From Druceiella hillmani (taxonomy: Eukaryota > Arthropoda > Insecta > Lepidoptera > Hepialidae), in assembly GCA_039881145.1 (NCBI GenBank), contig JAYKKI010000008.1:33133501-33197500 (forward strand): a stretch of DNA of 64,000 nucleotides, in the 5' to 3' direction. The position numbers and the translations under genes were made by a program. The notes beneath the pieces were generated by a model, which worked only from the letters and a program-made list of their open reading frames with translations, made no database searches and was not told the origin of the DNA. Shown one piece after another: positions 3,806 to 64,000 of the stretch (within the stretch, counting starts at the first letter, position 1; each line of letters begins with the position of its first letter).

Positions 3806-4028
3806 TTTTGAATATATTTGGAGTTAATTTTATAGAAATTCATTATAATTAAATTATTTCTCAACTACATGAAACTACGTGATGTAGTAATATTTCCACT
3901 TTATTTAAATGCTTTACCACGACCAAGGTTTCGTTGCATGACAACATTTTCAGGTGGGCAATTTGCTAAGCATCTTTAAAGAATTTAAATAAAGTAGAAA
4001 TAATACTACGTCATGTAGTTTCATTTAG

Positions 4029-4031
<3 letters not shown>
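3806..4031. mobile_element. Hammerhead foldback element, copy 1
   Basis: Begins with the family terminus 'tgaatatatttgg' and shows the left arm (tgaaactacgtgatgtagta, then the hammerhead-like block in minus orientation). A shortened inverted right arm ends at 'gtagtttcattta' by 4,027. The right terminus is replaced by the microsatellite at 4,030-4,094. Members of this family are inverted-repeat, non-coding and AT-rich with no transposase frame. Confidence 0.75.
3917..3957 (-). ncRNA. Degenerate hammerhead ribozyme motif
   Basis: Read on the minus strand: CCAC, core CUGAAAA, U, stem II GUUG/CAAC with loop UCAUG, GAA, stem III ACC/GGU, C, GUGG. The architecture matches the intact copy at 4,894-4,934, but the core has A where the invariant G8 of CUGANGA is expected. 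It is probably catalytically dead. Confidence 0.55.
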
Positions 4032-4093
<62 letters not shown>

Positions 4094-4107
4094 CTTTTTT
4101 TTTTTTT
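4030..4107. repeat. Compound microsatellite (AT)n(GT)n(AT)n then poly-T
   Basis: About 20 AT units, 10 GT units, further AT units and a 13-nt T run. It lies exactly at the junction of two foldback copies and replaces the right end of copy 1 and the left end of copy 2. Confidence 0.95.
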
Positions 4108-4277
4108 GTAGAAATTCATTATTCACAATTAAATGAAACTACGTGATGTAGTATTATTTCTACTTTCTTTAAGGTCTTTACCACGACCTACGTTATGTTG
4201 TATTACATCTTCAGGTGGACTATTAGCAAAGATCTTTGCTAATAGCCCACGTGGTTTCATTTAATTGTGAACCATTT
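4108..4277. mobile_element. Hammerhead foldback element, copy 2 (rearranged)
   Basis: Left arm from 'gtagaaattcattattcaca', then a damaged hammerhead-like block (4,181-4,218, minus strand), then a perfect 26-bp palindrome at 4,220-4,245 centred on AGATCT. It continues directly into 'gtttcatttaattgtga', the outer part of the right arm. The inner right arm is deleted. The hammerhead block has lost part of stem II and its GAAA. Confidence 0.75.
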
Positions 4278-4844
4278 AATTCTCTGACTATGCGTACTTT
4301 TTTCAAATTCGAGCCTGCGCACACTGTTCCGCATCTAATTGCTTTTTTCTATTTAGTCTACCCGGATTGAAATTTATTATTTACTTTACATAATAGATTT
4401 AATTAAAAAAATTAATACCTTAAATAACCTTTCCATATTCATAGATATATATTATTACTTAACACTCGCACGCACGCCATGGCCCGTGCGTCCGCCCGCC
4501 TCTCCATTTCTCTCAATGGATTTCAATTATGGCAAGGTATGTTGGTTGCAAATTAACCTTTATTTGAAATATTTATTTAAGTAAACAAATTTTACATATA
4601 AAGATTAAATACAAACAAATGAATAGTAAAGGACGTACTCGTTAGTAACATTTCCACGAGGGCGAATACTTGAAAATCTGTATAATTTGAGTGACCTATG
4701 TCCCCAAATAACTCGAGATTTATATCTTATAATTACCAGACGTTGCTGGATTTACCAATTATTCTAAATAATTTACTTTAAATATCACTTGCCTTTGATT
4801 AAAGTAAATAGAAAATAAATTTTATATACTAAAAACTAAATATA

Positions 4845-5056
4845 AATGCAACTACATGATGTAGTATTATTTCTACTTTCTTTAAGTTCTTTACCACGAC
4901 CTAGGTTTCGTCGTATTACAACATCTTCAGGTGGACTACCTAGGTCGTGATAAAGAACTTAAAGAAAGTAAAAATAATACTGCATCACGTAGTTTCATTT
5001 AATTGTGAATAATGAATTTCTACATAATTAATGCCAAATATATTCAATAAATATAA
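4845..5056. mobile_element. Hammerhead foldback element, copy 3
   Basis: Inverted-repeat element. The left arm carries the complete hammerhead motif. The right arm reads 'cctaggtcgtgataaagaac' then 'gtttcatttaattgtgaata' and ends in 'gccaaatatattcaata', the family right terminus. The paralogues at 10,800 and 50,900 lack it, so it inserted after the S3 duplication. Confidence 0.85.
4894..4934 (-). ncRNA. Intact minimal type I hammerhead ribozyme
   Basis: Self-cleaving RNA motif of 41 nt, read on the minus strand. In order: helix I 5' strand CCAC; core CUGAAGA; one unpaired U; stem II GUUG/CGAC (one G-U pair) closing loop UAAUA; GAA; stem III ACC/GGU with a 2-nt UA loop; cleavage-site C17, giving the triplet GUC; helix I 3' strand GUGG. 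Every invariant core nucleotide (C3, U4, G5, A6, G8, A9, G12, A13, A14) is present, with A15.1 pairing U16.1. Stem III is the palindrome ACCUAGGU, which as a monomer would be strained but could pair between two molecules. Dimeric hammerheads of this kind are known from Penelope-like elements and animal satellites. The extra U after A9 occurs in all copies here. Activity is inferred, not shown. Confidence 0.8.
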
Positions 5057-5520
5057 ATGATTTATAGTGAAGATCGGATTCGACAGTAACATTTATATGG
5101 GTAATATAAGTTTTGAGAACAGTCTATCATCATGAATTAGCGTAAACAGTTTTAAAAATTTACTGCGCAAGTCTTCTCAAAAATACGACGTCAGTGGAAT
5201 CGATAGTTTAAATAAGGAGTTTTTATCCTTTATTAGGAGGTGATGAATAAATCAGCCCTAAATAATTTAGTATTTGGTTTAATAAAAATCTCAGTCGTTA
5301 TTTTTTTTAATTAACTAAAATAATAAGGCAGTGAGTCATTGACTGCATTTTGTTTTTGAAATTGATTGACCGGGACTAATTTACGTTTATGAAATTTAAA
5401 TTCTGACGTATACTTGGGAACAATTGACCGGAATGGATTTGAATAGTAAAAAATTTGACTATATGTATCATTTAATAGTCAATTACATTGTCGTACTATT
5501 ATATGTGTATATATATTCAT

Positions 5521-7600: not shown

Positions 7601-8075
7601 GAAAAATGCTTACATTTGGCAAATTTGTTATATTTAGTACGTATTTAATTTAAATTTCAATGATGATTCATAATCTTCTCATGGTTTATCACGTTTAGTA
7701 GACTAATATAAATAAACCTACATATTTATTTAATTACGTAAACATCCTTATACTTGTCAAAAATATTGAGCAATCACATAAAAAATATAGGACAAAATTT
7801 ATTACAAGTAGAGAGTGCCAAAAAACCTTCAATAGTTTTATATCACAAAATAGGGGGCTTATTCCAAACCCAGTTGTAAGTAGTACAAATAAGCGTAGAT
7901 GGAATTTGACACTGATATATGTATGTTTGTTCCATAATAACTTTACAAAACCGCTGAAATATAAAGCGTTAAGCTCATTTTCTCTATAAAGCTTGTAATT
8001 AAATATTTCATGAGGACAAATTAAAATTTATGTTCACTCTAATGCCAAGGTTTGCTTTTGGTAAGTTTTTTATAC

Positions 8076-8192
8076 ACAATTAAATGAAACTACGTGATGT
8101 AGTATTAAAGTAGAAATAATACTACATCACGTAGTTTCATTTAATTGTGAATAATGAATTTCTACAAAATGAACGCCAAATATATTCAATAC
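8076..8192. mobile_element. Hammerhead-family foldback element, short copy
   Basis: Only the outer arms remain: 'acaattaaatgaaactacgt' facing 'acgtagtttcatttaattgt', with the central hammerhead-bearing part deleted. The right end is the family terminus 'gccaaatatattcaata'. It is flanked by a direct repeat, 'aagttttttatac' at 8,063-8,075 and 'aagtttttatac' at 8,193-8,204. It is absent from paralogue A near 1,810, so it is an insertion specific to copy B. Confidence 0.8.
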
Positions 8193-18764: not shown

Positions 18765-19350
18765 TTTCATTATAGAGATCTTGTTTTATTATGGTGAGAA
18801 AAATAAGTTTTTTTTCTAACTATACATCTCCTTGCAAATTATCATAAACTATGCACATTAGCAAAAACCTTGACTACGAATGGATGGACGGATTTAATAC
18901 AACTATGTGGGTTCCTTGTTTCATTATGGGGTGAAAAATTAATTTGACACATCTGCTTGCAAAATGTTACGCACATTGGCCTAGACCTTGATTACGGATG
19001 GACAGATGGATTTCATACAATTATGAGAGTTCCTTGTTTCATTATAGAAACCTAATTTCATTATGGGGTGAAAAATTAATTTTTTTTCAACGATATATCT
19101 AATTGAAAAATATCATGCACGTTAGCATGAACCTTGATTACAAATGGACGGACGGATTTAATGAAATTATGAGAGTTCCTTGTTTTATTATGGAAACCTT
19201 ATTTCATTATGGGGAGAAAAATAAGTTTTTTTTCAACGATAAATTTACTTCCAAAATATCATGCACATTAGCATAAGCCTTGACTACGGATGGACGGACG
19301 GATTTAATGCAATTATGACGGTTACTTGTTTCATTATGATAACCTACAAA
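18765..19350. repeat. Minisatellite, about four units of 118-150 bp
   Basis: Units start near 18,765, 18,919, 19,037 and 19,183. Each contains 'ttcattatgg', 'gcacattagc' variants, 'ccttgattacgg' and 'ggacggatttaat', then 'gagagttccttg'. A single diverged unit occurs in the paralogue at about 54,215-54,370. Units of this style, with 'gacggacgga' and '...gttcc', are frequent in Lepidoptera. Confidence 0.85.
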
Positions 19351-20951: not shown

Positions 20952-21024
20952 CCTTTTATTGACATAATTTGAAACTAAACATGGTATAAGGACAAATGAA
21001 TTAAGAATAGAATATAATCAATTT

Positions 21025-21172
21025 TCGTTGTATTATAACATCTTCAGGTGGGCTATAAGCAAAGATATTTGCTAATATTGTAATACAACGAAACCTAGGT
21101 CGTGGTAAAGAACTTAAAGGAAGTAGAAATAATACTACATCACGTAGTTTCATTTTATTGTGAACATATTAC
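21025..21172. mobile_element. Hammerhead foldback element, truncated copy
   Basis: The left half is cut inside the hammerhead block after 'tttcgttgtattataacatc'. The right arm, from 'ttgtaatacaacgaaaccta' to 'gtttcattttattgtgaa', lacks the CUGAAGA half. Neither arm can form a complete ribozyme. Confidence 0.75.
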
Positions 21173-21684: not shown

Positions 21685-22110
21685 AACTTAATACAACGTA
21701 ATCTAATCCAATCAAGTATAACTAAACACCGTCCAATCGAACCTATCCTAACAAAATATAACCTAATCAAACCTAACCTAACCTAACATCCTAACTTTAC
21801 CCACTATAACGCGACCTAATCCATCCTAACCTAACCTAACTCAGCCTAACCAGCACAACCCAACATAATCCCGCCTAACCCAACGTAACATAATTCAACC
21901 CATACTAACCCAAACTAATGCAACCCAACCTAACCCAACCATAATTCAGCCTAACCAGGACAACCCAATGAAGCCATCCCTAACCCAATCTAACACGATT
22001 TAACCCATCCTAACCCAACATAACGCATCTTAAACTAACCCAAGCTAATCCAACACAACACATCCTAATTCACTCTAATCCAACCTAATATAACCTAATC
22101 TAATCTAAAA
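21685..22110. repeat. Degenerate CCTAA (TTAGG-like) repeat block 1
   Basis: About 425 bp of 'aacctaaccta'-like units heavily interspersed with variants ('taacccaac', 'taatccaac'). TTAGG is the ancestral insect telomere repeat, so this is either an interstitial degenerate telomere-like tract or a pentamer satellite. It has a paralogous block at 55,075-55,690. Confidence 0.85.
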
Positions 22111-24148: not shown

Positions 24149-24312
24149 TTTGAATATATTTGGCGTTAATTTTGTAGAAATTCATTATTCACAATTAATC
24201 GAAACTATTTATTATATATATAATTATTTATATTATTTCTACTTTCTTTAATTTCTTTACCACGACCTAGGTTTCGTTGTATTACAACATCTTCAGTTGG
24301 GATATTAGTAAA
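24149..24312. mobile_element. Hammerhead foldback element, left half
   Basis: Full left terminus 'tgaatatatttggcgttaat', then the arm with an AT expansion in place of 'acgtgatgtag', the hammerhead block, and a cut after 'gggatattagtaaag'. No right arm follows. Confidence 0.8.
24260..24300 (-). ncRNA. Near-intact hammerhead ribozyme motif
   Basis: Minus strand: CCAA, CUGAAGA, U, stem II GUUG/CAAC (perfect) with loop UAAUA, GAA, stem III ACC/GGU, cleavage-site C, GUGG. The catalytic core is complete. The change of C to A at position 2.1 breaks the helix I pair next to the cleavage site, so activity is probably reduced or lost. Confidence 0.65.
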
Positions 24313-24852
24313 GTAGTATTTGATAAAACTTCTGTGTTAAATAATATATTTGTCGTAAAAAATAATTGCGATGTAACAATGATATTGATAAAAAATTATC
24401 AAACAGCTAAATGATCGGAAAATACTCTGATGATTTATGGGAAAAGACTGGAATGCGTGCTGTTTGACATGAAAAAGTTGGAGATTATTTTAGAAAAGCA
24501 GTAAATTTTTTCAGACAATACGCGAAAATGGAGAAAAAGCTATGTCGATGTTGCAATTTTTTTTTGTCAAGCAATTTCTTATACTGAGAAGGACTTCACT
24601 GGATTGCGAAGCCTTAATAATAAGTACTGTACTAGTAATGACAAGTACTTTGAAAAGAAAACGCAGACCAACACCAGTTGTAATTATTTCAGTTGTAATT
24701 TATTCATAGTATTTGGGTGAAGTGTCAACGATGTTATTTTCTGATTATTTGGAAATTCTAAAACTAAGAAAAATCATGGTTGCACGTAAGTGATAGTGAC
24801 TTCACTAGTCATCCAGCCAGTTCAATTTAAAAGCCCCAAGCTACGAGGTGCG
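24313..24852. other. Spacer before the satellite, no gene
   Basis: No coding frame recognised. A weak possible match to about 59,230-59,420 ('cttcattttagaaaa...cgc' and 'attgcaat...cactg' landmarks) suggests that the duplicon continues close to the array edge. Confidence 0.35.
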
Positions 24853-25670
24853 TCTATTCACGAATGAACATATATGAAAAGAGACTTCCTGTTGAGGCAG
24901 GACAGTGAATATAATAATAAAACGCGTATATAATACTACTAGCTAGATAGTATGTATTAATGAAGAAGAATTACTACGTATGATACACTGCTTTGAAAAA
25001 TCACACTATTCTATTAGAATATGTTCATTCATGAATTAACATATATGAAAAGAGACTTCATGTTGAGGCATGAAAGTGAACATAGTAATAAACCGGATTT
25101 ATAATGTTACTAGCTAGATAATTTATATTAATACAGCAGAATTAGTACATTTGGCACATCGCTTTGAAAAATCACATAATTATATTAGAATATGCTCATT
25201 CATGACTTAACATAAATGAAAAGAGATTTCATGTTGAGGCATGAAAGTGAACATAGTAATAAAACGCATTTACAATGTTACTAGCTAGATAGATTATATT
25301 AATACAATAGAATTACTACGTGTCACACAACGCTTTGAAAAATCACACTATTCTGTAAGAAAATTCCTATTCACGAATTAACAAATATGAAAAGAGACTT
25401 CATGTTGAGACGGGAAAATTATTATAATAATAAAACGCATTTATAATGTTACTAGCTAGATACATGATATTAATAAAATAGAATTACTACGTGTCACACA
25501 ACGCTTTGAAAAATCACACTATTCTGTTAGAAAATGCCTATCCACGAATTAACAAATATGAAAAGAGCCTTCATGTTGAGCTAGGAGAATGATTATAATA
25601 ATAAAAGGCATTTGTAATGTTACTAGCTAGATAGATTATATTAATACAATAGAATTACTACGTGTTACAC

Positions 25671-28600
25671 ACCGATTAGAAAAATCACACTATGCTGTTA
25701 GAAAATGCCTATCCACAAATTAACGAATATGTAAAGAGATTTCATGTTAAGGCTTGAAAATGATTATAATATTAAAACGCATTTATAATGTTACTAGCTA
25801 GATAGATTATATTGAAACAATAGAATTACTAGGTGTCACTCAACGCTTTGAATAATCACACTATTCTGTTAGAAAATGCTTATTCACGAATTAACAAATA
25901 TGAAAAGAGACTTCATGTTGAGGCGGGAAAATGATAACAATAATAAAACGCATATATAATGTTACTAGCTAGTTAGATTATATTAATACAATAGAATTAT
26001 TATGTGTCACATACCGCCTTGAAAAAAAACTATTGTGTTAGAAGATGCTTATACACAAATTAACAAATATGAAAAGAGACTTCATGTTAAGGCGGGAAAA
26101 TGATTATAATAATAAAACGCATTTATAATGTTACTAGCAAGATATTTTATATTAATACAATAGAATTACTACGTGTTACACACCGCTTTGAAAAACCACA
26201 CTATTCTGTTAGAAAATGCCTATTCACAAATTAACAAATATGAAAAGAGATTTCATGTTGAGGCGGGAAAATGATTATAATATTAAAACGCATTTATAAT
26301 GTAACTAGCTAGATAGATTATATTAATACAATAGAATTACTACGTCTTACACACCGCTTTGAAAAACCACACTATTCTGTTAGAAAATGGCTATTCACAA
26401 ATTAACAAATATGAAAAGAGATTTCATGTTGAGGCGGGAAAATGATTATAATAATAAAACCCATTTATAATGTTACTAGCTAGATAGATTATATTAATAC
26501 AATAGAATTACTACGTGTTACATACCGCTTTGAAAAATAACACTATTCTGTTAAAAAATGCCTATTCACAAATTAACAAATATGAAAAGATATTTCATGT
26601 TGAGGCGGGAAAATGATAATAATAATCAAACGCATTTATAATGATACTAGCTAGAAAGATTATATTAATACAATAGAATTACTACGTGTTACACACCGCT
26701 TTGAAAAATAACACTATTCTGTTAGAAAATGCATATTCACGAATTAGCAAATATGAAAAAAGTCTTCATGTTGAGGCGGGAAAATGATTACAATAATGAA
26801 ACGCATTTATAATGTTACTAGCTAGATAGACTATATTAATACAATAGAATTACTACGAGATACACACCGATTAGAAAAATCACACTATGCTGTTAGAAAA
26901 TGCCTATCCACAAATTAACGAATATGTAAAAAGATTTCATGTTAAGGCTTGAAAATGATTATAATATTAAAACGCATTTATAATGTTACTAGCTAGATAG
27001 ATTATATTGAAACAATAGAATTACTAGGTGTCACTCAACGCTTTGAATAATCACATTATTCTGTTAGAAAATGCTTATTCACGAATTAACAAATATGAAA
27101 AGAGACTTCATGTTGAGGCGGGAAAATGATAACAATAATAAAACGCATATATAATGTTACTAGCTAGTTAGATTATATTAATACAATAGAATTATTATGT
27201 GTCACATACCGCCTTGAAAAAAACACTATTGTGTTAGAAGATGCTTATACACAAATTAACAAATATGAAAAGAGATTTCATGTTGAGATGGGAAAATGAT
27301 TATAATAATAAAACGCATTTATAATGTTACTAGCTAGATAGATTATATTAATACAATAGAATTACTACGTGTCACACACCGATTAGAAAAATCACACTAT
27401 TCTGTTAGAAAATGCCTATTCGCGAATTAACAAATATGAAAAGAGACTTCATCTTGAGGTGGGAAAATGATTATAATAATAAAACGCATTTATACTGTTA
27501 CTAGCTAGATAGATTACATTAATACAATAGAATTATTACGTGTTACACACCGCTTTGAAAAATAACACTATTCTGTTAGAAAATGCCTATTCACGAATTA
27601 ACAAATATAAAAAAAGTCTTCATGTTAAGACGGGATAATGATTACAATTATAAAACGCATGTATAATGTTACTAGCTAGATAGATTATGTTAGTAAAATA
27701 GAATTACTAAGTGTTACACACCGCTGTGAAAAATAACATTATTCTGTTAGAAAATGCCTATTCACAAATTAACAAATATGTAAAGAGATTTCATGTTGAG
27801 GCGGGAAAATGATTATAATAATAAAACGCATTTATAATGTTACTAGCTAGATAGACTATATTAATACAATAGAATTACTACGTGTCACACATAGATTAGA
27901 ATAATCACATTATTCTGTTAGAAAATGCCTTTCCCGAATTAACAAATATGAAGAGAGACTTCAGGTTGAGGCGGGAAAATGATTATAATAATAAAACGCA
28001 TTTATGATGTAACTAGCTAGATATATTATATTAATACAATAGAATTACTAAGTGTTACACACAGCTTTGAAAAATAACACCATTCTGTTAGAAAATGCCT
28101 ATTCACAAATTAACAAATATGAAAGGAGATTTCATGTTGAGACGGGAAAATAATTACAATAATAAAACGCATTTATAATGTTACTAGCTAGATAGATTAT
28201 ATTAATACAATAGAATTACTACGTGTCACATACCGCTTTGAAAAATCCCATTATTCTCTTAGAAAATGCCTATTCACGAATTAAAAAATATGAAAAAAGA
28301 TTTCGTGTTGAGGCGGGAAAATGATTATAATAATAAAAAACATTTATGAGGTTACTAGCTAGAAAGATTATATTAATACAAGAGATTTACTACGTGTTAC
28401 ACACAGCTTTGAAAAATAACACCATTCTGTTAGAAAATATATATTCACAAATTAACAAATATGAAAGGAGATTTCATGTTGAGACGGGAAAATGATTACA
28501 ATAATAAAACGCATTTATAATGTTACTAGCTAGATAAATTATATTAATACAATAGAATTACTGCGTGTCACACACCAATTAGAAAAATCACACTGTTCTG

Positions 28601-29470
28601 TTAGAAAACGCCTATCCGCGAATTAACAAATATGAAGAGAGACTTCATGTTGAGGCGGGAAAATGATTATAATAATAAAACGCATTTATAATGTTACTAG
28701 CTAGATATTTTATATTAATACAATAGAATTACTACGTGTTACACACCGCTTTGAAAAACCACACTATTCTGTTAGAAACTGCCTATTCACAAATTAACAA
28801 ATATGAAAAGAGATTTCATGTTGAGGCGGGAAAATGATTATAATAATAAAACTCATTTATAATTTACTACCTAGATAGATTATATTAATACAATAGAATT
28901 ACTACGTGTTACACACCGATTAGAAAAATCACACTATGCTGTTAGAAAATGCCTACTCGCGAATTAACAAATATAAAAAAAGTCTTCAAGTCGAGACGGG
29001 AAAATGATTACAATAATGAAACGCATTTATAATGTTACTAGCTAGATAGACTATATTAATACAATAGAATTACTACGAGTTACACACCGATTAGAAAAAT
29101 CACACTATGCTGTTAGAAAATGCCTATCCACAAATTAACGAATATGTAAAGAGATTTCATGTTAAGGCTTGAAAATGATTATAATATTAAAACGCATTTA
29201 TAATGTTACTAGCTAGATAGATTATATTGAAACAATAGAATTACTAGGTGTCACTCAACGCTTTGAATAATCACACTATTCTGTTAGAAAATGCTTATTC
29301 ACGAATTAACAAATATGAAAAGAGACTTCATGTTGAGGCGGGAAAATGATAACAATAATAAAACGCATATATAATGTTACTAGCTAGTTAGATTATATTA
29401 ATACAATAGAATTATTATGTGTCACATACCGCCTTGAAAAAAACACTATTGTGTTAGAAGATGCTTATAC
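25671..29470. repeat. Higher-order repeat block within the satellite
   Basis: A diagnostic run of about four monomers (with 'aaggcttgaaaatg', 'attgaaacaatagaattact', 'aggtgtcactcaacg', 'tgtcacataccgcc') begins at 25,671, 26,866 and 29,086. The spacings of 1,195 and 2,220 bp are about 7 and 13 monomers. Confidence 0.85.
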
Positions 29471-29859
29471 ACAAATTAACAAATATGAAAAGAGATTTCA
29501 TGTTGAGATGGGAAAATGATTATAATAATAAAACGCATTTATAATGTTACTAGCTAGATAGATTATATTAATACAATAGAATTACTACGTGTCACACACC
29601 GATTAGAATAATCACATTATTCTGTTAGAAAATCCCTTTCCCGAATTAACAAATATGAAGAGAGACTTCATGTTGAGGCGGGAAAATGATTATAATAATA
29701 AAAGGCATTTGTAATGTTACTAGCTAGATGGATTATATTAATACAATAGAATTACTACGTGTCACATACCGCTTTGAAAAATCTCACTATTCTGTTAGAA
29801 AATGCCTATTCACGAATTAACAAATATGGGAAAAGTTTTCGTGTTGAGGCGGGGAAATG

Positions 29860-32800
29860 ATTACAATTATAAAACGCATTTATAATGTTACTAGCTAGAT
29901 ACATTATATTAATACAATAGAATTACTAAGTGTTACACACCGCTGTGAAAAATAACACTATTCTGTTAGAAAATGCCTATTCACAAATTAACAAATATGT
30001 AAAGAGATTTCATGTTGAGGCGGGAAAATTATTATAATAATAAAACGCATTTATAATGTTACTAGCTAGATAGACTAAATTATTACAATAGAATTACTAC
30101 GTGTCACACATAGATTAGAATAATCACATTATTCTGTTAGAAAATGCCTTTACCGAATTAACAAATATGAAGAGAGACTTCAGGTTGAGGCGGGAAAATT
30201 ATTATAATAATAAAACGCATTTATAATGTTACTAGCTAGATAGATTATATTAATACAATAAAATTACTACGTGTTACACACCGATTAGAAAAATCACACT
30301 AATCTGTTAGAAAATGCCTATTCGCGAATTAACAAATATGAAAAGAGACTTCATGTTAAGACGGGATAATGATTACAATTATAAAACGCATTTATAATGT
30401 TACTAGCTAGATAGATTATATTAATACAATAGAATTACTGCGTGTCACACACCAATTAGAAAAATTACACTGTTCTGTTAGAAAACGCCTATTCGCAAAT
30501 TAACAAATATGAAGAAAGACTTCATGTTGAGGCGGGAAAATGATTATAATAATAAAACGCATTTATAGTGTTACTAGCTAGATATTTTATATTAATACAA
30601 TAGAATTACTATGTATTACACACCGCTTTGAAAAACCACACTATTATGTTAGAAAATGCCTATTCACAAATTAACAAATATGAAAAGAGATTTCATGTTG
30701 AGGCGGGAAAATGATTATAATTATAAAACGCATTTATAATGTTACTAGCTACATAGATTATATTAATACAATAGAATTACTACGTGTCACACACCAATTA
30801 GAAAAATCACACTGTTCTGTTAGAAAATGCCTATTCTCGAATTAACAAATATGAAAAGAGACTTCATGTTTAGGTGGGAAAATTATTATAATAATAAAAA
30901 GCATTTATAATGTTACTAGCTAGATAAATTATATTAATACAATAGAATTACTACGTGTTACACACCGCTTTGAAAAATAACACCATTCTGTTAGAAAATG
31001 CCTATTCACGAATTAACAAATATGAGAAAAGTTTTCGTGTTGAGGCGGGAAAATGATTATAATAATAAAACGCATTTATGATGATACTAGCTAGATAGAT
31101 TATATTAATACAATAGAATTACTGTGTGGAACACACCAATTAGAAAAATCACACTATTCTGTTAGATAATGCCTATTCGCGAATTAACAAATATGAAATA
31201 AGTCTTCATGTTGAGGCGGGAAAATGATTACAATAATAAAAAGCATTTATAATGTTACTAGCTAGATAGATTATATTAATAAAATAGAATTACTACGTGT
31301 TACACACCGATTAGAAAAATCACACTAATCTGTTAGAAAATGCCTATTCGCGAATTAACAAATATGAAAAGAGACTTCATGTTGAGGTTGGAAAATGATT
31401 ATAATAATAAAACGCATTTATAATGTTATTAGATAGATAGATTATATTAATACAATAGAATTACTAAGTGTCACACACCGATTAGAATAATCACACTATT
31501 CTGTTAGAAAATGCCTATTCGCGAATTAACAAATATGAAAAGAGTCTTCATGTTGAGGTGGGAAAATGATTATAATCATAAAACGCATTTATACTGTTAC
31601 TAGATAGATAGAATATATTAATACAATAGAATTACTACGTGTTACACACCGCTTTGAAAAATAACACTATTCTGTTAGAAAATGCCTATTCACGAATTAA
31701 CAAATATAAAAAAAGTCTTCATGTTAAGACGGGATAATGATTACAATTATAAAACGCATTTATAATGTTACTAGCTAGATACATTATATTAATACAATAG
31801 AATTACTAAGTGTTACACACCGCTGTGAAAAATAACACTATTCTGTTAGAAAATGCCTATTCACAAATTAACAAATATGTAAAGAGATTTCATGTTGAGG
31901 CGGGAAAATTATTATAATAATAAAACGCATTTATAATGTTACTAGCTAGATAGACTAAATTATTACAATAGAATTACTACGTGTCACACATAGACTAGAA
32001 TAATCACATTATTCTGTTAGAAAATGCCTTTACCGAATTAACAAATATGAAGAGAGACTTCAGGTTGAGGCGGGAAAATTATTATAATAATAAAACGCAT
32101 TTATAATGTTACTAGCTAGATAGATTATATTAATACAATAAAATTACTACGTGTTACACACCGATTAGAAAAATCACACTAATCTGTTAGAAAATGCTTA
32201 TTCGCGAATTAACAAATATGAAAAGAGACTTCATGTTAAGACGGGATAATGATTACAATTATAAAACGCATTTATAATGTTACTAGCTAGATAGATTATA
32301 TTAATACAATAGAATTACTGCGTGTCACACACCAATTAGAAAAATTACACTGTTCTGTTAGAAAACGCCTATTCGCAAATTAACAAATATGAAGAGAGAC
32401 TTCATGTTGAGGCGGGAAAATGATTATAATAATAAAACGCATTTATAGTGTTACTAGCAAGATATTTTATATTAATACAATAGAATTACTATGTATTACA
32501 CACCGCTTTGAAAAACCACACTATTATGTTAGAAAATGCCTATTCACAAATTAACAAATATGAAAAGAGATTTCATGTTGAGGCGGGAAAATGATTATAA
32601 TTATAAAACGCATTTATAATGTTACTAGCTACATAGATTATATTAATACAATAGAATTACTACGTGTCACACACCAATTAGAAAAATCACACTGTTCTGT
32701 TAGAAAATGCCTATACTCGAATTAACAAATATGAAAAGAGACTTCATGTTTAGGTGGGAAAATTATTATAATAATAAAAAGCATTTATAATGTTACTAGC

Positions 32801-32950
32801 TAGATAAATTATATTAATACAATAGAATTACTACGTGTTACACACCGCTTTGAAAAATAACACCATTCTGTTAGAAAATGCCTATTCACGAATTAACAAA
32901 TATGAGAAAAGTTTTCGTGTTGAGGCGGGAAAATGATTATATTAATAAAA
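29860..32950. repeat. 11-monomer higher-order duplication
   Basis: Variant landmarks repeat with an offset of 1,880 bp (11 x 171 minus 1): 'gctagatacattatatt' near 29,893 and 31,773, and 'actatgtattacacac' near 30,608 and 32,488. The two copies differ at only scattered positions, so this duplication is recent relative to monomer divergence. Confidence 0.85.
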
Positions 32951-32999
32951 CACATTTATGATGATACTAGCTAGATAGATTATATTAATACAATAGAAT

Positions 33000-35660
33000 T
33001 ACTACGTGTTTCACACCGCTTTGAAAAATAACACTATTCTGTTAGAAAATGCCTATCCACGAATTCACAAATATGAAATAAGTCTTCATGTTGAGGCGGG
33101 AAAATGATTACAATAATAAAAAGCATTTATAATGTTACTAGTTAGATAGATTATATTAATACAATAGAATTACTACGTGTCACACACCGATTAGAATAAT
33201 CCCACTATTCTGTTAGAAAATGCCTATTCACGAATTAAAAATATGAAAAAGGATTTCGTGTTGAGGCGGGAAAATTACTGTAATAATAAAACACATTTAT
33301 GAGGTTACTAGCTAGATAGATTACATTAATACAATAAAATTACTACATGTTACACACCGCTTTGAAAAATAACACTATTCTGTTAGAAAATGCCTATTCA
33401 AGAATTAACAAATATGAAAAAAGCCTTCATGTTGAGGCGGGAAAATGATTACAATAATAAAACGCATTTATAATGTTACTAGCTAGATAGATTATATTAA
33501 TACAATAGAATTACTGCGTGGAACACACCAATTAGAAAAATCACACTATTCTGTTAGAAAATGCCTTTCCCGAATTAACAAATATGAAGAGAGACTTCAG
33601 GTTGAGGCGGGAAAATGATTATAATATTAAAACGCATTTATAATGTTACTAGCTAGATAGATTATATTAATAAAATAGAATTACTACGTGTCACATACCG
33701 CTTTGAAAAATCCCATTATTCTGTTAGAAAATGCCTATTCACGAATTAACAAATATGAAAAAAGATTTCGTGTTGAGGCGGGAAAATGATTATAATAATA
33801 AAACACATTTATAATGTTACTAGCTAGATAAATTATATTAATACAATAGAATTACTACGTGTTACACACCGCTTTGAAAAATAACACCATTCTGTTAAAA
33901 AATGCCTATTCACGAATTAACAAATATGAGAAAAGTTTTCGTGTTGAGGCGGGAAAATGATTATAATAATAAAACACATTTATGATGATACTAGCTAGAT
34001 AGATTATATTAATACAATAGAATTACTACGTGTTTCACACCGCTTTGAAAAATAACACTATTCTGTTAGAAAATGCCTATCCACGAATTCACAAATATGA
34101 AATAAGTCTTCATGTTGAGGCGGGAAAATGATTACAATAATAAAAAGCATTGATAATGTTACTAGGTAGATAGATTATATTAATACAATAGAATTACTAC
34201 GTGTCACACACCGATTAGAATAATCCCACTATTCTGTTAGAAAATGCCTAATCACGAATTAAAAATATGAAAAAGGATTTCGTGTTGAGGCGGGAAAATT
34301 ACTGTAATAATAAAACACATTTATGAGGTTACTAGCTAGATAGATTACATTAATACAATAAAATTACTACATGTTACACACCGCTTTGAAAAATAACACT
34401 ATTCTGTTAGAAAATGCCTATTCAAGAATTAACAAATATGAAAAAAGCCTTCATGTTGAGGCGGGAAAATGATTACAATAATAAAACGCATTTATAATGT
34501 TACTAGCTAGATAGATTATATTAATACAATAGAATTACTGCGTGGCACACACCAATTAGAAAAATCACACTATTCTGTTAGAGAATGCCTATTCGCGAAT
34601 TAACAAATATGAAAAGAGACTTCATGTTGAGGTGGGAAAATGATTATAATAATAAAACGCATTTATAATGTTACTAGCTAGATAGATTATATTAATACAA
34701 TAGAATTGCTACGTGTTACACACCGATTAGAAAAATCACACTAATCTGTTAGAAAATGCATATTCGCGAATTAACAAATATGAAAAGAGTCTTCATGTTG
34801 AGGTGGGAAAATGATTATAATCATAAAACGCATTTATACTGTTACTAGATAGATAGAATATATTAATACAATAGAATTACTACGTGTTACACACCGCTTT
34901 GAAAAATAACACTATTCTGTTAGAAAATGCCTATTCACGAATTAACAAATATAAAAAAAAGTCTTCATGTTAAGACGGGATAATGAATACAATTATAAAA
35001 CGCATTTATAATGTTACTAGCTAGATAGATTATATTAATACAATAGAATTACTAAGTGTTACACACCGCTGTGAAAAATAACACTATTCTCTTAGAAAAT
35101 GCCTATTCACAAATTAACAAATATGTAAAGAGATTTCATGTTGAGGCGGGAAAATAATAATAATAATAAAACGCATTTATAATGTTACTAGCTAGATAGA
35201 CTATATTAATACAATAGAATTACTACGTGTCACACATGGATTAGAATAATCACATTATTCTGTTAGAAAATGCCTTTCCCGAATTAACAAATATGAAGAG
35301 AGACTTCAGGTTGAGGCGGGAAAATGATTATAATATTAAAACGCATTTATAATGTTACTAGCTAGATAGATTATATTAATAAAATAGAATTACTACGTGT
35401 CACATACCGCTTTGAAAAATCCCATTATTCTGTTAGAAAATGCCTATTCACGAATTAACAAATATGAAAAAAGATTTCGTGTTGAGGCGGGAAAATGATT
35501 ATAATAATAAAACACATTTATGAGGTTACTGGTTAGATAAATTACATTAATACAATAAAATTACTACGTGTTACACACCGCTTTGAAAAATGACACTATT
35601 CTGTTAGAAAATTCCTATTCAAGAATTAACGAATATGAAAAAAGCCTTCATGTTGAGGCG
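33000..35660. repeat. 6-monomer higher-order duplication
   Basis: 'actacgtgtttcacacc' at 33,001 and 34,025, and the unusual 'attaaaaatatgaaaaagga' about 33,235 and 34,259, both show a 1,024-bp offset (6 monomers minus 2 bp). Confidence 0.8.
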
Positions 35661-37620
35661 GGAAAATGATTACAATAATAAAACGCATTTATAATGTTAC
35701 TAGCTAGAAAGATTATATTAATACAAGAGATTTACTACGTGTTACACACAGCTTTGAAAAATAACACTATTCTGTTAGAAAATGCCTATTCACAAATTAA
35801 CAAATATGAAAGGAGATTTCATGTTGAGGCGAGAAAATGATTACAATAATAAAACGCATTTATAATGTTACTAGCTACATAGATTATATTAATACAATAG
35901 AATTACTGCGTGTCACACACCGATTAGAAAAATCACACTAATCTGTTAGAAAATGCCTATCCACGAATTCACAAATATGAAAAAAGTCTTCATGTGGAGG
36001 CGGGAAAGTGATTACAATAATAAAAACATTTATAATGTTACTAGCTAGATAGATTATATTAATACAATAGAATTACTACGTGTCACACACCGATTAGAAT
36101 AATCACACTAATCTGTTAGAAAATGCCTATCCACGAATTCACAAATATGAAAAAAGTCTTCATGTTGAGGCGGGAAAATGATTACAATAATAAAAAGCAT
36201 TTATAATGTTACTAGCTAGATAGAATATATTAATACAATAGAATTACTACGTGTTACACACCGCTGTGAAAAATAACACTATTCTCTTAGAAAATGCCTA
36301 TTCACAAATTAACAAATATGTAAAGAGATTTCATGTTGAGGCGGGAAAATAATAATAATAATAAAACGCATTTATAATGTTACTAGCTAGATAGACTATA
36401 TTAATACAATAGAATTACTACGTGTCACACATAGATTAGAATAATCACATTATTCTGTTAGAAAATGCCTTTCCCGAATTAACAAATATGAAGAGAAACT
36501 TCAGGTTGAGGCGGGAAAATGATTATAATATTAAAACGCATTTATAATGTTACTAGCTAGATAGAATATATTAATAAAATAGAATTACTACGTGTCACAT
36601 ACCGCTTTGAAAAATCCCATTATTCTGTTAGAAAATGCCTATTCAAGAATTAACGAATATGAAAAAAGCCTTCATGTTGAGGCGGGAAAATGATTACAAT
36701 AATAAAACGCATTTATAATGTTACTAGCTAGAAAGATTATATTAATACAAGAGATTTACTACGTGTTACACACAGCTTTGAAAAATAACACTATTCTGTT
36801 AGAAAATGCCTATTCACAAATTAACAAATATGAAAGGAGATTTCATGTTGAGGCGGGAAAATGATTACAATAATAAAACGCATTTGTAATGTTACTAGCT
36901 AGATAAATTATATTAATACAATAGAATTACTGCGTGTCACACCAATTAGAAAAATCACACCATTCTGTTAGAAAATGCCTATTCGCGAATTAACAAATAT
37001 GAAAAGAGACTTCATGTTGAGGTGGGAAAATTATTATAATAATAAAACGCATTTATAATGTTACTAGCTAGATAGATTATAATAATACAATAGAATTACC
37101 ACGTGTCACACACCGATTAGAAAAATCACACTAATCTGTTAGAAAATGCCTATTCACGAATTAACAAATATGAAAAAACATTTCGTGTTGAGGCGGGAAA
37201 ATGATTACAATAATAAAACGCATTTATAATGTTACTAGCTAGAAAGATTATATTAATACAAGAGATTTACTACGTGTTACACACAGCTTTGAAAAATAAC
37301 ACTATTCTGTTAGAAAATGCCTATTCACAAATTAACAAATATGAAAGGAGATTTCATGTTGAGGCGGGAAAATGATTACAATAATAAAACGCATTTATAA
37401 TGTTACTAGCTAGATAAATTATATTAATACAATAGAATTACTGCGTGTCACACCAATTAGAAAAATCACACTATTCTGTTAGAAAATGCCTATTCGCGAA
37501 TTAACAAATATGAAAAGAGACTTCATGTTGAGGTGGGAAAATGATTATAATAATAAAACGCATTTATAATGTTACTAGCTAGATAGATTATAATAATACA
37601 ATAGAATTAATACGTGTCAC
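35050..37620. repeat. 7-, 6- and 3-monomer duplications
   Basis: 'actattctcttagaaaatgc' recurs about 1,197 bp apart (near 35,080 and 36,277). The variant 'agctagaaagattatatt' occurs at 35,702, 36,726 and 37,237, that is 1,024 and 511 bp apart (6 and 3 monomers). Confidence 0.75.
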
Positions 37621-40138
37621 ACACCGATTAGAAAAATCACACTAATCTGTTAGAAAATGCCTATTCGCGAATTAACAAATATGAAAAGAGACTTCATGTT
37701 GAGGTGGGAAAATGATTATAATAATAAAACGCATTTATAATGTTACTAGCTAGATAGATTATATTAATACAATAGAATTACTAAGTGTTACACACCGCTG
37801 TGAAAAATAACACTATTCTGTTAGAAAATGCCTGTTCACTAATTAACAAATATGTAAAGAGGTTTCATGTTGAGGCGGGAAAATGATTGTAATAATAAAA
37901 CGCATTTATAATGTTACTAGTTAAATAGTTTATCTTAATACAATAGAATTACTACGTGTTACACGCCGCTTTGAAAAATAACATTATTCTGTTAGAAAAT
38001 ACCTATTCACGAATTAACAAGTATGAGAAAAGATTTCGTGTTGAGGCGGGAAAATGATTATATTAATAAAACACATTTATGATGATACTAGCTAGATAGA
38101 TCACATTAATACAATAGAATTACTACGTGTCACACACCGATTAGAAAAATCACACTATTCTGTTAGAAAATGCCTATTCGCGAATTAACAAATATGAAAA
38201 GAGACTTCATGTTGAGGTGGAAAAATGATTGTAATAATAAAACGCATTTATAATGTTACTAGCTAGATAGATTATCTTAATACAATAGAATTACTACGTG
38301 TTACACACCGCTTTGACAAATAACATTATTCTGTTAGAAAATGCCTATACACGAATTAACAAGTATGAGAAAAGATTTCGTGTTGAGGCGGGAAAATGAT
38401 TATAGAAATAAAATGCATTTATAATGTTACTAGCTAGATAGATTTAATTCATACAATAAAATTATTACGTGTTACACACAATTTTGAAAAATAACACTAT
38501 TCTGTTAGAAAATGTCTATTCACTAATTATCAAATATGAAAAAGTCTTCATGTTGAGGCGGGAAAATGATTATAATAATAAAACGCATTTATAATGTTAC
38601 TAGCTAGATAGTTTATATTAATACAATAGAATTTCTACGTGTCACACACCGATTAGAAAAATCACACTGTTCTGTTAGTAAACCCCAATTCGCGAAATAA
38701 CAAATATGAAGAGAGACTTCATGTTGAGGCGGGAAAATGATTACAATAATAAAACGCATTTATAATGTTACTAGTTAGATAGATTATATTAATACAATAG
38801 AATTACTACGTGTCACACACCGATTAGAAAAATCACACTATTCTGTTAGAAAATGCCTATTCGCGAATTAACAAATATAAAAAGAGACTTCATGTTGAGG
38901 TAGGAAAATGATTGTAATAATAAAACGCATTTATAATGTTACTAGCTAGATAGATTATCTTAATACAATAGAATTACTACGTGTTACATACCGCTTTGAA
39001 AAATAACACTATTCTGTTAAAAAATGCCTATTCACAAATTAACAAATATGAAAAGATATTTCATGTTGAGGCGGGAAAATGATAATAATAATAAAATGCA
39101 TTTACAATGTTACTAGCCTGAAAGATTATATTAATACAATAGAATTACTACGTGTTACACACCGCTTTGAAAAATAAAACTATTCTGTTAGAAAGTGACT
39201 ATTAACGAATTAACAAATATGAAAAAAGTCTTCATGTTGAGGCGGGAAAATGATTACAGTAATAAAAAGCATTTATAATGTTACTAGCTAGATAGATTAT
39301 ATTAATACAATAGAATTTCTACGTGTCACACACCGATTAGAAAAATCACACTATTCTGTTAGAAATTGCCTATTCGCGAATTAACAAATATGAAAAGAGA
39401 TTTCATGTTGAGACGGGAAAATGATTATAATAATAAAACGCATTTATAATGTTACTAGCTAGATAGATTATATTAATACAATAGAATTACTATGTGTCAC
39501 ACACCGATTAGGAAAATCACACTATTCTGTTAGAAAATGCCTATTCGCGAATTAACAAATATGAAGAGAGACTTCATGTTGAGGCGGAAAAATGATTATA
39601 ATAATAAAACGCATTTATAATGTTACTAGTTGGATAGGTTATAATAATACAATAGAATTACTACGTGTTACACACCGCTTTGAAAAATAACACTATTCTG
39701 TTAGAAAATGCCTATTCACAAATTAACAAATATGAAAAGAGATTTCATGTTGAGGCGGGAAAATGATTATAATAATAAAACGCATTTATAATGTTACTAG
39801 CTAGAAAGATTATATTAATACAATAGAATTACTACGTGTTACACACCGCTTTGAAAAATAAAACTATTCTGTTAGAAAATGCCTATTCACGAATTAACAA
39901 ATATGAAAAGAGACTTCATGTTGAGATGGGAAAATGATTATGATAATAAAACGCATATATAATGTTACTAGCTAGATAGATTATCTTAATATAATAGAAT
40001 TACTACGTGTTACACATAGCTTTGAAAAATGACATTATTCTGTTAGAAAATGCCTATTAACGAATTAACAAATATAAAAAAGTCTTCATGTCGAGACGGG
40101 AAAATGATTACAATAATAAAAAGCATTTATAATGTTAC

Positions 40139-40830
40139 TAGCTAGATATATTATATTAATACAATAGAATTACTACGTGTTACATACCGCTTTGAAAAAT
40201 AATACTATTCTGTTAAAAAAATGCCTATTCACAAAATAACAAATATGTAAAGAGATTTCATGTTGAGGGGGAAAATGATTATAATAATAAAACGCATTTA
40301 TAATGTTACTAGCTAGATAGATTATATTAATACAATAGAATTACTACGTGTCACATACCGCTTTGAAAAATCCCACTATTCTGTTAGAAAATGCCTATTC
40401 ACGAATTAACAAATATGAGAAAAGATTTCGTGTTGAGGCGGGAAAATGATTGTAATAATAAAACACATTTATGGTGATACTAGCTATATAGATTACATTA
40501 ATACAATAGAATTACTACGTGTTACACACCACTTTGAAAAATTACACTATTCTGTTAGAAAATGCCTATTCACGAATTAACAAATATGAAAAAAGTCTTC
40601 ATGTTGAGGCGGGAAAATGATTACAATAATAAAAAGCATTTATAATGTTACTAGCTAGATATATTATATTAATACAATAGAATTACTACGTGTTACATAC
40701 CGCTTTGAAAAATAATACTATTCTGTTAAAAAATGCCTATTCACAAAATAACAAATATGTAAAGAGATTTCATGTTGAGGGGGAAAATGATTATAATAAT
40801 AAAACGCATTTATAATGTTACTAGCTAGAT
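40139..40830. repeat. 3-monomer duplication near the right array edge
   Basis: The variant 'gctagatatattatatt' followed by 'ataatactattctgtta' and 'gttgagggggaaaatg' occurs twice, about 510 bp apart. Confidence 0.75.
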
Positions 40831-41032
40831 AGATTGTATTAATACAATATAATTACTACGTGTCACACACCGATTAGAATAATCACACTATTCTGTTAGA
40901 AAATGCCTATTCGCGAATTAACAAATATGAAGAGAGACTTAATGTTGAGGCGGGAAAATGATTATAATTTCTGTGAGCAAATATTGTACATGTCATTTGC
41001 GAGGGTCTAAATTATAAAATGTTTAATACCTT

Positions 41033-42489: not shown

Positions 42490-42800
42490 GCGTAGAAACT
42501 TGCAATTTGGTATAGTAATAAAATATATTAATCCGCACATATCTCAACAGTTAATACTCAGAAATATTTATAATGAACTTTTAGGGCGGGAAATTAAATA
42601 CTTGCATATATTTGGCATAGTTATAAAATATAATAATCCGCACATATCTCAACAGTTAATACTCAGAAATATTTATAATGAAATTTTATGGCGGCAAATG
42701 AAATACTTGCTTACATTTGGCATAGTAATAAAATATATTAAGCCGTCCATATCTCAATAGTTAATAATCAGAAATATTCAAAATGACCTTTTAGGGCGGG
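42490..42800. repeat. Minisatellite, three units of 96-105 bp
   Basis: Unit starts 'gcgtag', 'gcggg', 'gcggc' and 'gcggg' lie at 42,490, 42,586, 42,691 and 42,796. Each unit contains 'tttggcatag', 'taataaaatata', 'ccgcacatatctcaacag' and 'cagaaatatttataatga'. The period is a multiple of three in the last units, which opens the 106-codon plus-strand frame from 42,440; this is repeat-derived and not a gene. Confidence 0.9.
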
Positions 42801-43434
42801 GAACTAATATGCCATATATAGTTTGAGATTTCCTTTAAAAACACTAATAATAAGGTCTCAAAAGTACCTTTTTTCATAATTTCCGATAGTACATCTTTAG
42901 AAACATACTGAAAATTAAGCAAATAAAATTAAGCCTCTCTCTTTTTCCAAAACTATTCAACCCCCAATTATGACAAAAAATGAATTTTTAGAAACCTATG
43001 CAGGGTTTGTAAGGTTCTATTTTGTAATTTTTCAATAATGCACTACATTTTAACGTCTGCAAAATACATAGCAGGCAATTAGTTTAATTTGGGAAAGATT
43101 AATTTGTAAATAGTTTAATAAAGCTACTAAGTAACATTAAATATTTTTAAGCGTCTAAATGCATACCAAACTCTTGTAGTTGTAGTTCTACTCGTGCTTG
43201 ACAGGTCTTTTATAAACATATTAATATGCTCTAATAGGTTTAATAGGAAATGCATTATAAATCTGTTTTTAAAGTGAACTGTTGTGGCCGCTCAAAAACG
43301 TTAAAATATAATTGTTCGCAAACATGTCATTCAATTGGGGATAATTAATGGAAATAGTAACGCACTTTATAACACAAAAGAATACAGGAAGAACAATTTT
43401 ATTTTCTCCATATTAAATTTGCGTGTCTTTATCC
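42801..43434. other. AT-rich, no feature recognised
   Basis: No paralogous counterpart was found in the 60.9-61.5 kb interval, so this begins a region of about 4 kb (to about 46.8 kb) present in only one duplicon copy. Confidence 0.4.
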
Positions 43435-55074: not shown

Positions 55075-55690
55075 TATGCTCTATAATAATTTAAATCAAA
55101 CCTAACCTAACTTAACCTTACCTAAAATAATTTGACCAAACCTAACCTAATAAGACAAATAAGTTTAGTCTCCTCTTAAGACTAAATAAGTTTAGTCAAA
55201 CATAATTCGGTTTAACCTAACTTAACGTAACCTGACCTAACTTAACTTAACCTAACCTAATTTAACCCAACATGATGCAATCAAAATAAAATCTTAGACC
55301 CAGCCTAATATAATATTATTTAAACCAGTTTAATTCGACTTAAACCAACCTAAATTAACCTAATCTAGCATAACCTAACACAACCAAATACAACCTGAGT
55401 TAACTTAATATACCCATATTTAAAAAATCCTAACATAATCTGACATTACCCGACTAAACTTAACCAAACCTATCCTAACTTAACTCATCTAACCCTACCT
55501 AGTACAATCTAACCTAATTTAACCCCATACAACCCAACATTTATCGTTATCAGCAATGTCTAGCTCAATCACACTTAACACAATTTAACCTATCCTCACC
55601 CAACCTAAGCCTACATCACTCAAGTTAATTCAACTTAACCTTACCCGACTTAATGACATAATGACATAATAAACCATATCGTTTCATCTA
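55075..55690. repeat. Degenerate CCTAA (TTAGG-like) repeat block 2
   Basis: About 600 bp of 'aacctaacctaa', 'aacttaacc' and related variants, in the same orientation and duplicon position as block 1. Interrupted by non-repeat inserts. Confidence 0.85.
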
Positions 55691-63536: not shown

Positions 63537-63779
63537 AATATTGAATATATTTGGCGTTAAGTTTGTAAAATTCATTCTTCACAATTAAATGAAACTACGT
63601 GATATAGTATTATTTCTACTTTCTTTAAGTTCTTTACCACGACTGGGCTATTAGCAAAGATAATCAATCTTTGCTAATAGCCCACCTTAAGATGTTGTAA
63701 TACAACGAAACCTAGGTCGTGGTAAAGAACTTAAAGAAAGTAGAAATAATACTACATCACATAGTTTCATTTAATTGTG
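63537..63779. mobile_element. Hammerhead foldback element with empty paralogous site
   Basis: Left terminus 'tattgaatatatttggcgtt', long inverted arms and a central stem of 'gggctattagcaaaga' facing 'tctttgctaatagccc'. The right arm carries the hammerhead block; the left arm has lost it ('ccacgactgggctat'). 'attaattattca' occurs directly on both sides (63,525-63,536 and 63,780-63,791) and may be a 12-bp target duplication. The 47.39 kb paralogue lacks the element. Confidence 0.85.
63682..63722 (+). ncRNA. Degenerate hammerhead ribozyme motif
   Basis: Plus strand: CCAC, CUUAAGA, U, stem II GUUG/CAAC with loop UAAUA, GAA, stem III ACC/GGU with UA, C, GUGG. Every helix is intact but the invariant G5 of the core is U, which should abolish cleavage. 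Confidence 0.6.
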
Positions 63780-64000
63780 ATTAATTATTCATTTTGGATT
63801 TAGTAAGATAAAAGCTATTTCATCCTCTACTTTATAGTACCTTAGTTTCAGTAGCGCATATACATACGGCTTCTAATTTCTACAAAATCACTAGAATTTT
63901 GTAACATGTAGTTGCAGAAATAAGTAAGTAAAACAGTTTATATTGAAGCAAGTAAAGAAACAATTATTAATTGAATCTATTTATTTGATTCTGGTAGTAT

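Follow-up and report, generated by a model that had tools for sequence, protein, structure and literature searches.

Solo-pLTR foldbacks with a minimal type I hammerhead in Druceiella hillmani and a possible genomic record of ribozyme cleavage

A stretch of 64,000 nucleotides from Druceiella hillmani, referred to here as the window, contains a candidate hammerhead ribozyme of 41 nt inside a short foldback element. The locus raises the question of which kind of element carries so small a ribozyme and whether RNA is cut by it in the animal. The explanation favored here places the hammerhead in the pLTR of a GIY-YIG Penelope element, with the short copies as solo-pLTR insertions made by two-sided priming; its probability is put at roughly 0.8.

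The hammerhead and the foldback that carries it

The minimal type I hammerhead lies on the minus strand at 4894..4934, where the sequence from 4934 to 4894 reads CCAC CUGAAGA U GUUGUAAUACGAC GAAA CCUAGGUC GUGG. The 5' strand of stem I, CCAC (4931..4934), pairs over 4 bp with GUGG (4894..4897), the start of the 3' product. The core segment CUGAAGA (C3 to A9; 4924..4930) is followed by one extra unpaired U (4923), by stem II with its loop, GUUGUAAUACGAC (4910..4922), by the core segment GAAA (G12 to A15.1; 4906..4909), and by the palindromic stem III, ACCUAGGU (4899..4906). Cleavage is predicted between C17 (4898) and G1.1 (4897). As the earlier note had read from this strand, all nucleotides of the type I core (CUGANGA / GAAA / UH) and the GUC triplet are present, with three helices open at stem I. 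That note gave helices of 4, 4, and 3 bp, which holds for stems I and II; stem III has 3 bp nominally (ACC/GGU), and because a 2-nt loop is impossible, it shrinks in the monomer to 2 bp closed by a CUAG loop. Stem II extends to 5 bp when the adjoining U-A is included, and the majority of copies show ACAAC, so that all five pairs are Watson-Crick.

The extra U 3' of A9 departs from the textbook core, as had been noticed. It is T in 110 of 112 arms of the family. A9, the extra U, and G10.1 spell AUG, and the distance from A9 to C17 is 26 nt. The extra U may be a relic of a start codon, which is a guess since the frame AUG UUG UAA closes immediately.

Folding predictions agree with action as a dimer, which the palindromic stem III had implied. 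For two 41-mers, the RNAcofold minimum is an exact double hammerhead at −23.0 kcal/mol for the family form and −22.4 for the copy at 4894-4934, and the structure string predicted for the double hammerhead is identical to this minimum. The single 41-mer prefers another fold (−7.2 versus −3.8 kcal/mol), and the stability of the monomer is ordinary (z of −0.6 and −0.4). Stem III, too short alone and self-complementary in the modeled dimer, is typical of Penelope hammerheads, and the assignment to this kind of short-stem-III type I hammerhead, expected to act as a dimer, is supported.

The element with the hammerhead occupies 4849-5047. BLAST alignment to the family unit, a 164-nt reference taken from one genomic copy (L036), resolves a no-tail arm on the minus strand (4849..4934; unit about 110 to 25), which contains the hammerhead, a 3-nt filler (4935..4937), and the pLTR part of a tail arm on the plus strand (4938..5009; unit 53 to 124), which does not contain the core. 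The tail itself (5010..5047, plus strand; unit 125 to 162) is present on the latter arm only and, by the one-tail rule described below, would represent the stretch between two reverse transcriptase (RT) start sites. Comparison of the flanks shows a 12-bp target-site duplication, TAAATATAAATG, at 4837..4848 and 5048..5059. The foldback of the earlier note is therefore real, with the refinement that it would consist of two head-to-head reverse transcripts, both from one RNA region, rather than of a DNA foldback transposon. Its no-tail arm extends to the outermost base of stem I (unit 25); because the arm passes the cut to reach this position, the template is read as uncleaved RNA. The element is probably a dead insertion.

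The other six family copies in the window, assigned by BLAST to the unit, have broken or missing parts. A foldback at 63539..63785 contains a plus-strand core (63686-63722) with G5 changed to U, a single minus-strand arm with tail at 24150..24313 contains a core with a broken stem I (24260-24300), and a foldback at 21023..21164, which also matches the core pattern, has lost stem III (21023-21066). The arms of a short foldback at 8070..8191 end short of the hammerhead, and two decayed insertions, 3808-4030 and 4104-4271, lie within 3808..4271. The copy at 24 kb adjoins a 171-bp satellite (24854-40968; 94 copies, 88% matches) with a strong A-over-T skew. Further tandem arrays have units of 146 bp (18951-19346) and 105 bp (42505-42807), and interstitial CCTAA-like repeats at 21735-22108 and 55087-55271 resemble the telomere repeats of arthropods.

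A hammerhead descriptor (4-bp stem I, stem II of at least 4 bp, optional extra base after A9, short stem III) gave 1 match in the window compared to 0.0007 expected per 64 kb, a rate set by 18 matches among 1,591 Mb of sequence generated by a Markov-1 model. By itself, the loose core pattern (CTGANGA...GAAA) is unremarkable, with 6 occurrences in the window versus 2.66 expected, a number reached by 5 of 100 shuffles. In the assembly (2.586 Gb, 181 contigs), the core pattern has 39,892 matches (20,003 and 19,889 on the two strands), compared to 0 for the backwards control. The genome search with Rfam models proposed by the note was negative: RF00163 found no match among the 73 of 260,322 genomic candidates scored, with the controls silent too, and an Rfam scan gave no match at the gathering score. 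A guess is that these models misfit a stem III of 2 to 3 bp. Rfam matches to microRNA, snoRNA, and leader families, all below cutoff, were attributed to the foldback hairpin.

Comparison of 112 arms reveals no clear difference in divergence that would indicate purifying selection on the core, with means of 4.3% for the core, 5.8% for the stems, 4.8% for unit 66-122, and 3.9% for the tail. Variation in the helices among copies, all of one family, resembles random decay. An amplified, ribozyme-dead G5U subfamily, suspected from 16 arms with G5 changed to T, was rejected: the CTTANGA pattern has 215 matches in the genome versus the 39,892 of CTGANGA, such arms number 0 of 45 in sample C (defined below), and their excess arose because the query itself carries G5U. 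A 3-nt loss in stem II (TGTTGT to TGT, unit 39-41) recurs at L068, L074, and L077; the two arms of an insertion can differ in it, as would result from slippage during reverse transcription.

Family architecture and the link to a Penelope element

In the unit, the hammerhead occupies positions 25-65 (65-25 along the window), with the extra U at 36, the palindrome ACCTAGGT at 53-60, and the cut at 61|62. Insertions were sampled in four ways. The queries used for samples A (L009-L028; 40 of 1,956 candidates scored) and B (L029-L058; 40 of 1,829) bias both for the junction, sample C (L059-L088) is biased for an intact hammerhead on one arm, and sample D (L094-L113), 20 among the matches listed with sample C places skipped, is biased for the tail. 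Fourteen loci repeating another locus were dropped before arms, pairs, and alleles were counted. L037, whose flanks equal those of L031, was retained there and dropped from the count of inner ends; these two loci (contig C98) have common flanks and a common target-site duplication and are probably a segmental duplication of one insertion. An exon similar to ecdysteroid kinases (PF02958) lies at locus L035.

The majority of sampled insertions show two unit arms joined head to head, with 77 head-to-head pairs and zero tail-to-tail pairs. Among the 83 two-armed insertions in which both outer ends could be read (L037 and L091-L093 left out), 78 contain the tail of ∼40 nt on exactly one arm, 2 on neither, and 3 on both; without 12 insertions picked by their tail, the count is 66 of 71. 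The outer ends lie at unit 162-164 for the tail arm and mostly at 119-128 for the no-tail arm. A second tail occurs in 0 of 20 insertions of sample D, which were selected only by the tail; 13 partners are no-tail arms, 3 are shortened outside, and 4 are absent within the 438 bases fetched. Exact flanking repeats of at least 9 nt accompany 47 of 83 insertions, compared to 0.6% of 2,000 mismatched flank pairs. A tail of 30-40 nt at one end, an inverted pLTR, and duplications of ∼8-12 bp are features of Penelope pLTR derivatives. A direct tandem is found only around L072, with the other sampled arms head to head or single.

The inner ends are more variable. The two arms each have sequence absent from the other in 30 of 64 one-tail pairs, where the tail arm is shorter inside. 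The two arms of an insertion nevertheless share alleles at position 73 (57/63, about 32 expected), position 81 (67/67), position 23 (14/15), and position 79 (60/65; p = 0.02), and both would mostly derive from one RNA or from one source copy, with a few pairs, such as L074, seeming to come from two different RNAs. Sharing at positions 31, 37, 42, 47, and 104 is at chance level, as expected if these changes are later decay. Junctions among the matches listed contain filler in 66 of 99 cases and 5-nt microhomology in 14 of 99. Arm ends at unit 9 or 10 account for 17 of 33 in sample D and would correspond to the RNA 5' end. In sample A, ends at unit 53 were considered as an RT stop and probably reflect bias from a query that carries that junction. 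Short GATT- or AATC-like additions, perhaps untemplated or due to slippage, occur at L036, L045, L065, and L111 where the cDNA leaves the RNA 5' end.

A GIY-YIG profile search of the genome (150 of 1,572 candidates scored) gave two matches over the cutoff. One resembles SLX1; the other, of the Penelope type (Pfam GIY-YIG, 2.5e-08), is flanked by one inverted and one direct copy of the unit. The same endonuclease (EN), together with its 3' region, lies upstream of the unit at L081 (75% identity) and L088 (71%), 2 of the 30 loci found only through the hammerhead pattern. L081 is preceded by a YVDD-containing RT piece (RVT_1, 1.1e-11), so that RT and EN both precede the hammerhead unit in the joint locus L092+L081, a large foldback with arms of ∼1 kb and a 12-bp duplication. 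All of these coding remnants, EN in L091, L081, and L088 and RT in L092+L081, are decayed. Since unit copies flank Penelope RT and EN, the unit is identified as a pLTR that belongs to a GIY-YIG Penelope element; its short solo-pLTR copies are non-autonomous derivatives of that element. The window contains no stop-to-stop frame of at least 130 amino acids and no Penelope coding match, and the frame at the hammerhead closes at once, which together mark the family as non-autonomous. The earlier note named Penelope-like elements, retrozymes, and some animal satellites as carriers of short-stem-III type I hammerheads, and the first of these is the one to which the family is tied. The template of the long copies crossed the hammerhead into the coding region, so the RNA start is not always at unit 9-10.

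Arm ends at the predicted cleavage site

Unit 62 is the first nucleotide 3' of the predicted cut. In insertions with both arms ending near the ribozyme, 47 of 94 ends at 47 places among the matches listed fall exactly there, followed by 6 at unit 63 and by 15 at unit 64, the limit of the pattern. Counted per place among these matches, both arms end at unit 62 in 18 of 47, one arm in 11, and none in 18. The set consists of 47 of 50 places used among the matches listed (476 total), after 3 nested outer matches were dropped. The picture changes when the partner arm continues beyond the cut and stops near the RNA 5' end: in this set (99 of 100 places used among the matches listed, 1 nested duplicate dropped), other-arm starts spread over units 32 to 62, the range allowed by the pattern, and only 4 of 99 lie at unit 62. 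The difference between 29 of 47 places with an end at unit 62 and 4 of 99 with an uncut partner gives a Fisher p of 3e-14 among the matches listed. A further 25 of the 99 starts, at unit 53-56 beside the stem III palindrome, are not explained by the ribozyme cut.

The absence of a pause at unit 62 when the partner passes indicates that G1.1 was probably the 5' end of the template, and one such template probably served both arms in many cases. Cleaved RNA would then probably exist in vivo as a minor template, and the ends of the genomic copies suggest that RNA is cut in the animal exactly at the predicted site; an additional transcription start on that nucleotide could also produce the peak. 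The pattern for insertions ending at the cut finds 476 places compared to 31 in the backwards control, and three pairs among the 47 places have identical inner letters, which points to some chance palindromes and possible duplicates in the set. Set against 14,729 exact tail ends in the genome, the 476 places correspond, by a rough estimate that allows for losses from exact matching, to cut templates in about one per cent of insertions. Sample D is richer, with an arm at unit 62 in 3 of 20, perhaps by luck.

A proposed insertion mechanism, rival explanations, and known systems

The proposed mechanism starts from an RNA of ∼155 nt whose 5' end, near unit 9-10, would usually lie about 16 nt upstream of the ribozyme. 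Supplied in trans, a Penelope protein would cut the two target strands at positions about 12 bp apart, and reverse transcription would begin at both DNA ends from two RNA sites about 40 nt apart. The two cDNAs would extend to the RNA 5' end, meet, and become joined through microhomology or filler; the resulting foldback would have head-to-head arms, a single tail, and a target-site duplication. The majority of templates would be uncut. In a minority, put roughly at one per cent, the hammerhead would have cut the RNA at C17|G1.1 beforehand, probably as a dimer or with help from the Penelope protein, and the cDNAs would stop exactly there, often both. A more specific version, in which a single RNA of one Penelope RNP is read twice, from either cut target strand in turn, the two start sites have fixed roles (the tail site for one side, the inner site for the other), the hammerhead sets the ends whenever it has fired, and the foldbacks form a fossil record of these events, is held tentatively, at slightly less than even odds.

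Among the rival explanations, the one given most weight, although unlikely, treats the ends at unit 62 as the mark of an RT pause or of transcription from an alternative start, and the hammerhead as a relic. It draws on the persistence of the G5U variant (215 copies) and of stem II deletions and on a core barely more conserved than its surroundings. A pause should, however, also appear when the partner passes the site, where 4 of 99 was found among the matches listed, and an alternative start would have to coincide exactly with the predicted nucleotide, a chance of roughly 1 in 100. Somewhat less probable is self-priming, in which a cDNA or antisense transcript snaps back on a palindrome and copies itself without a second priming. 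PMC3846280 argues for this route from palindromes at Penelope junctions of Adineta vaga, and here the palindrome ACCTAGGT lies beside many junctions of samples A and B and alleles are common to both arms. Arms that each contain sequence of their own, as in 30 of 64 one-tail pairs, do not come from self-copying and contradict it, and a single tail per insertion (78/83) is not predicted by it.

An animal non-LTR retrozyme spreading through circular RNA would share the small size (∼155 nt), the type I hammerhead, the low GC content, and the long duplications with the elements covered in PMC7229834. It is considered very improbable here, given that the arms are head to head or single rather than in direct tandem, that many stop near unit 9-10 rather than circling round, and that the majority of templates would be uncut. 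The inverted-repeat shape and the roughly 30 descriptor matches expected by chance genome-wide (scaled from the Markov-1 rate) would also suit an ordinary MITE or foldback DNA transposon in which a hammerhead arose by chance. Such a coincidence amounts to about 2e-6 for a 164-nt unit at the same scaled rate, and duplications of ∼12 bp, a tail on one arm, variable inner ends, and the physical link to Penelope RT and EN make it a highly unlikely account. The faintest prospect belongs to a type III hammerhead formed from the foldback arms, with a GUA cut and a 12-bp stem III, which was suggested by a weak Rfam match (Hammerhead_3; 19.2 bits versus the 48.5 of the cutoff). It was rejected: stem I of this fold would have 2 bp with a closing loop of 2 nt, and the fold needs the AGT filler of the copy at 4849-5047, in contradiction to copies with other fillers.

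The solo-pLTR reading is close to several known systems. Hammerheads in Penelope pLTRs were described by Cervera and de la Pena (2014) and by Lunse, Weinberg and Breaker (2017), both cited in PMC7761336, and the minimal type I form with a tiny helix III, the location in the pLTR, and dimeric cleavage are known from print. In contrast to these descriptions, the pLTR alone has spread here as short foldbacks, genomic arm ends point to the cut site, and the extra U after A9 may be a further difference. For the Anolis element Poseidon/PAc, Frangieh 2024 (PMC11167929) reports a protein that cuts and extends both target strands in vitro, two RT start sites with the stretch between them forming a tail of 30-40 bp, and protein-assisted hammerhead cleavage in vitro. 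Priming on both strands and a pair of start sites whose spacing of 30-40 nt defines the tail recur in the present interpretation. The Anolis ORF begins at stem II, and its start codon lies 26 nt before the cut, the same distance as from A9 to C17 here. The Anolis experiments concern a full-length element in vitro with equal start-site choice on the two strands, whereas almost all insertions here show one site on each side; reads ending at the hammerhead cut were reportedly not seen in Anolis.

Penelope of Adineta vaga, as described in PMC3846280, has an inverted pLTR pair with a 31-bp tail on one member, duplications of 8-10 bp, and a shorter inverted pLTR, all with counterparts here. That element is of low copy number and self-priming is favored by its authors, in contrast to the very many solo-pLTR foldbacks of D. 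hillmani. The retrozymes of PMC7229834 are likewise small non-autonomous retroelements of very high copy number with a type I hammerhead; they form tandem repeats with canonical hammerheads and circular RNAs, in contrast to the head-to-head or single arms found here. No paper on solo-pLTR hammerhead foldback families or on cDNA ends at the cut was found in literature that mostly excludes subscription journals, and the foldback family and its genomic cleavage footprint look new.

The foldback copies bear on Penelope insertion, which has been rebuilt partly in vitro (PMC11167929) and is otherwise inferred from genomic copies. They also suggest an identity for dispersed minimal hammerheads in animal genomes, as solo-pLTR Penelope derivatives can be such. 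The genome itself may record cleavage, since reverse transcripts stop at the predicted nucleotide mostly when the partner arm ends there or close by and hardly ever when it runs past. If this is true, tens of thousands of foldbacks would each record a single insertion, and the cleavage state of the template could be read from each of them.
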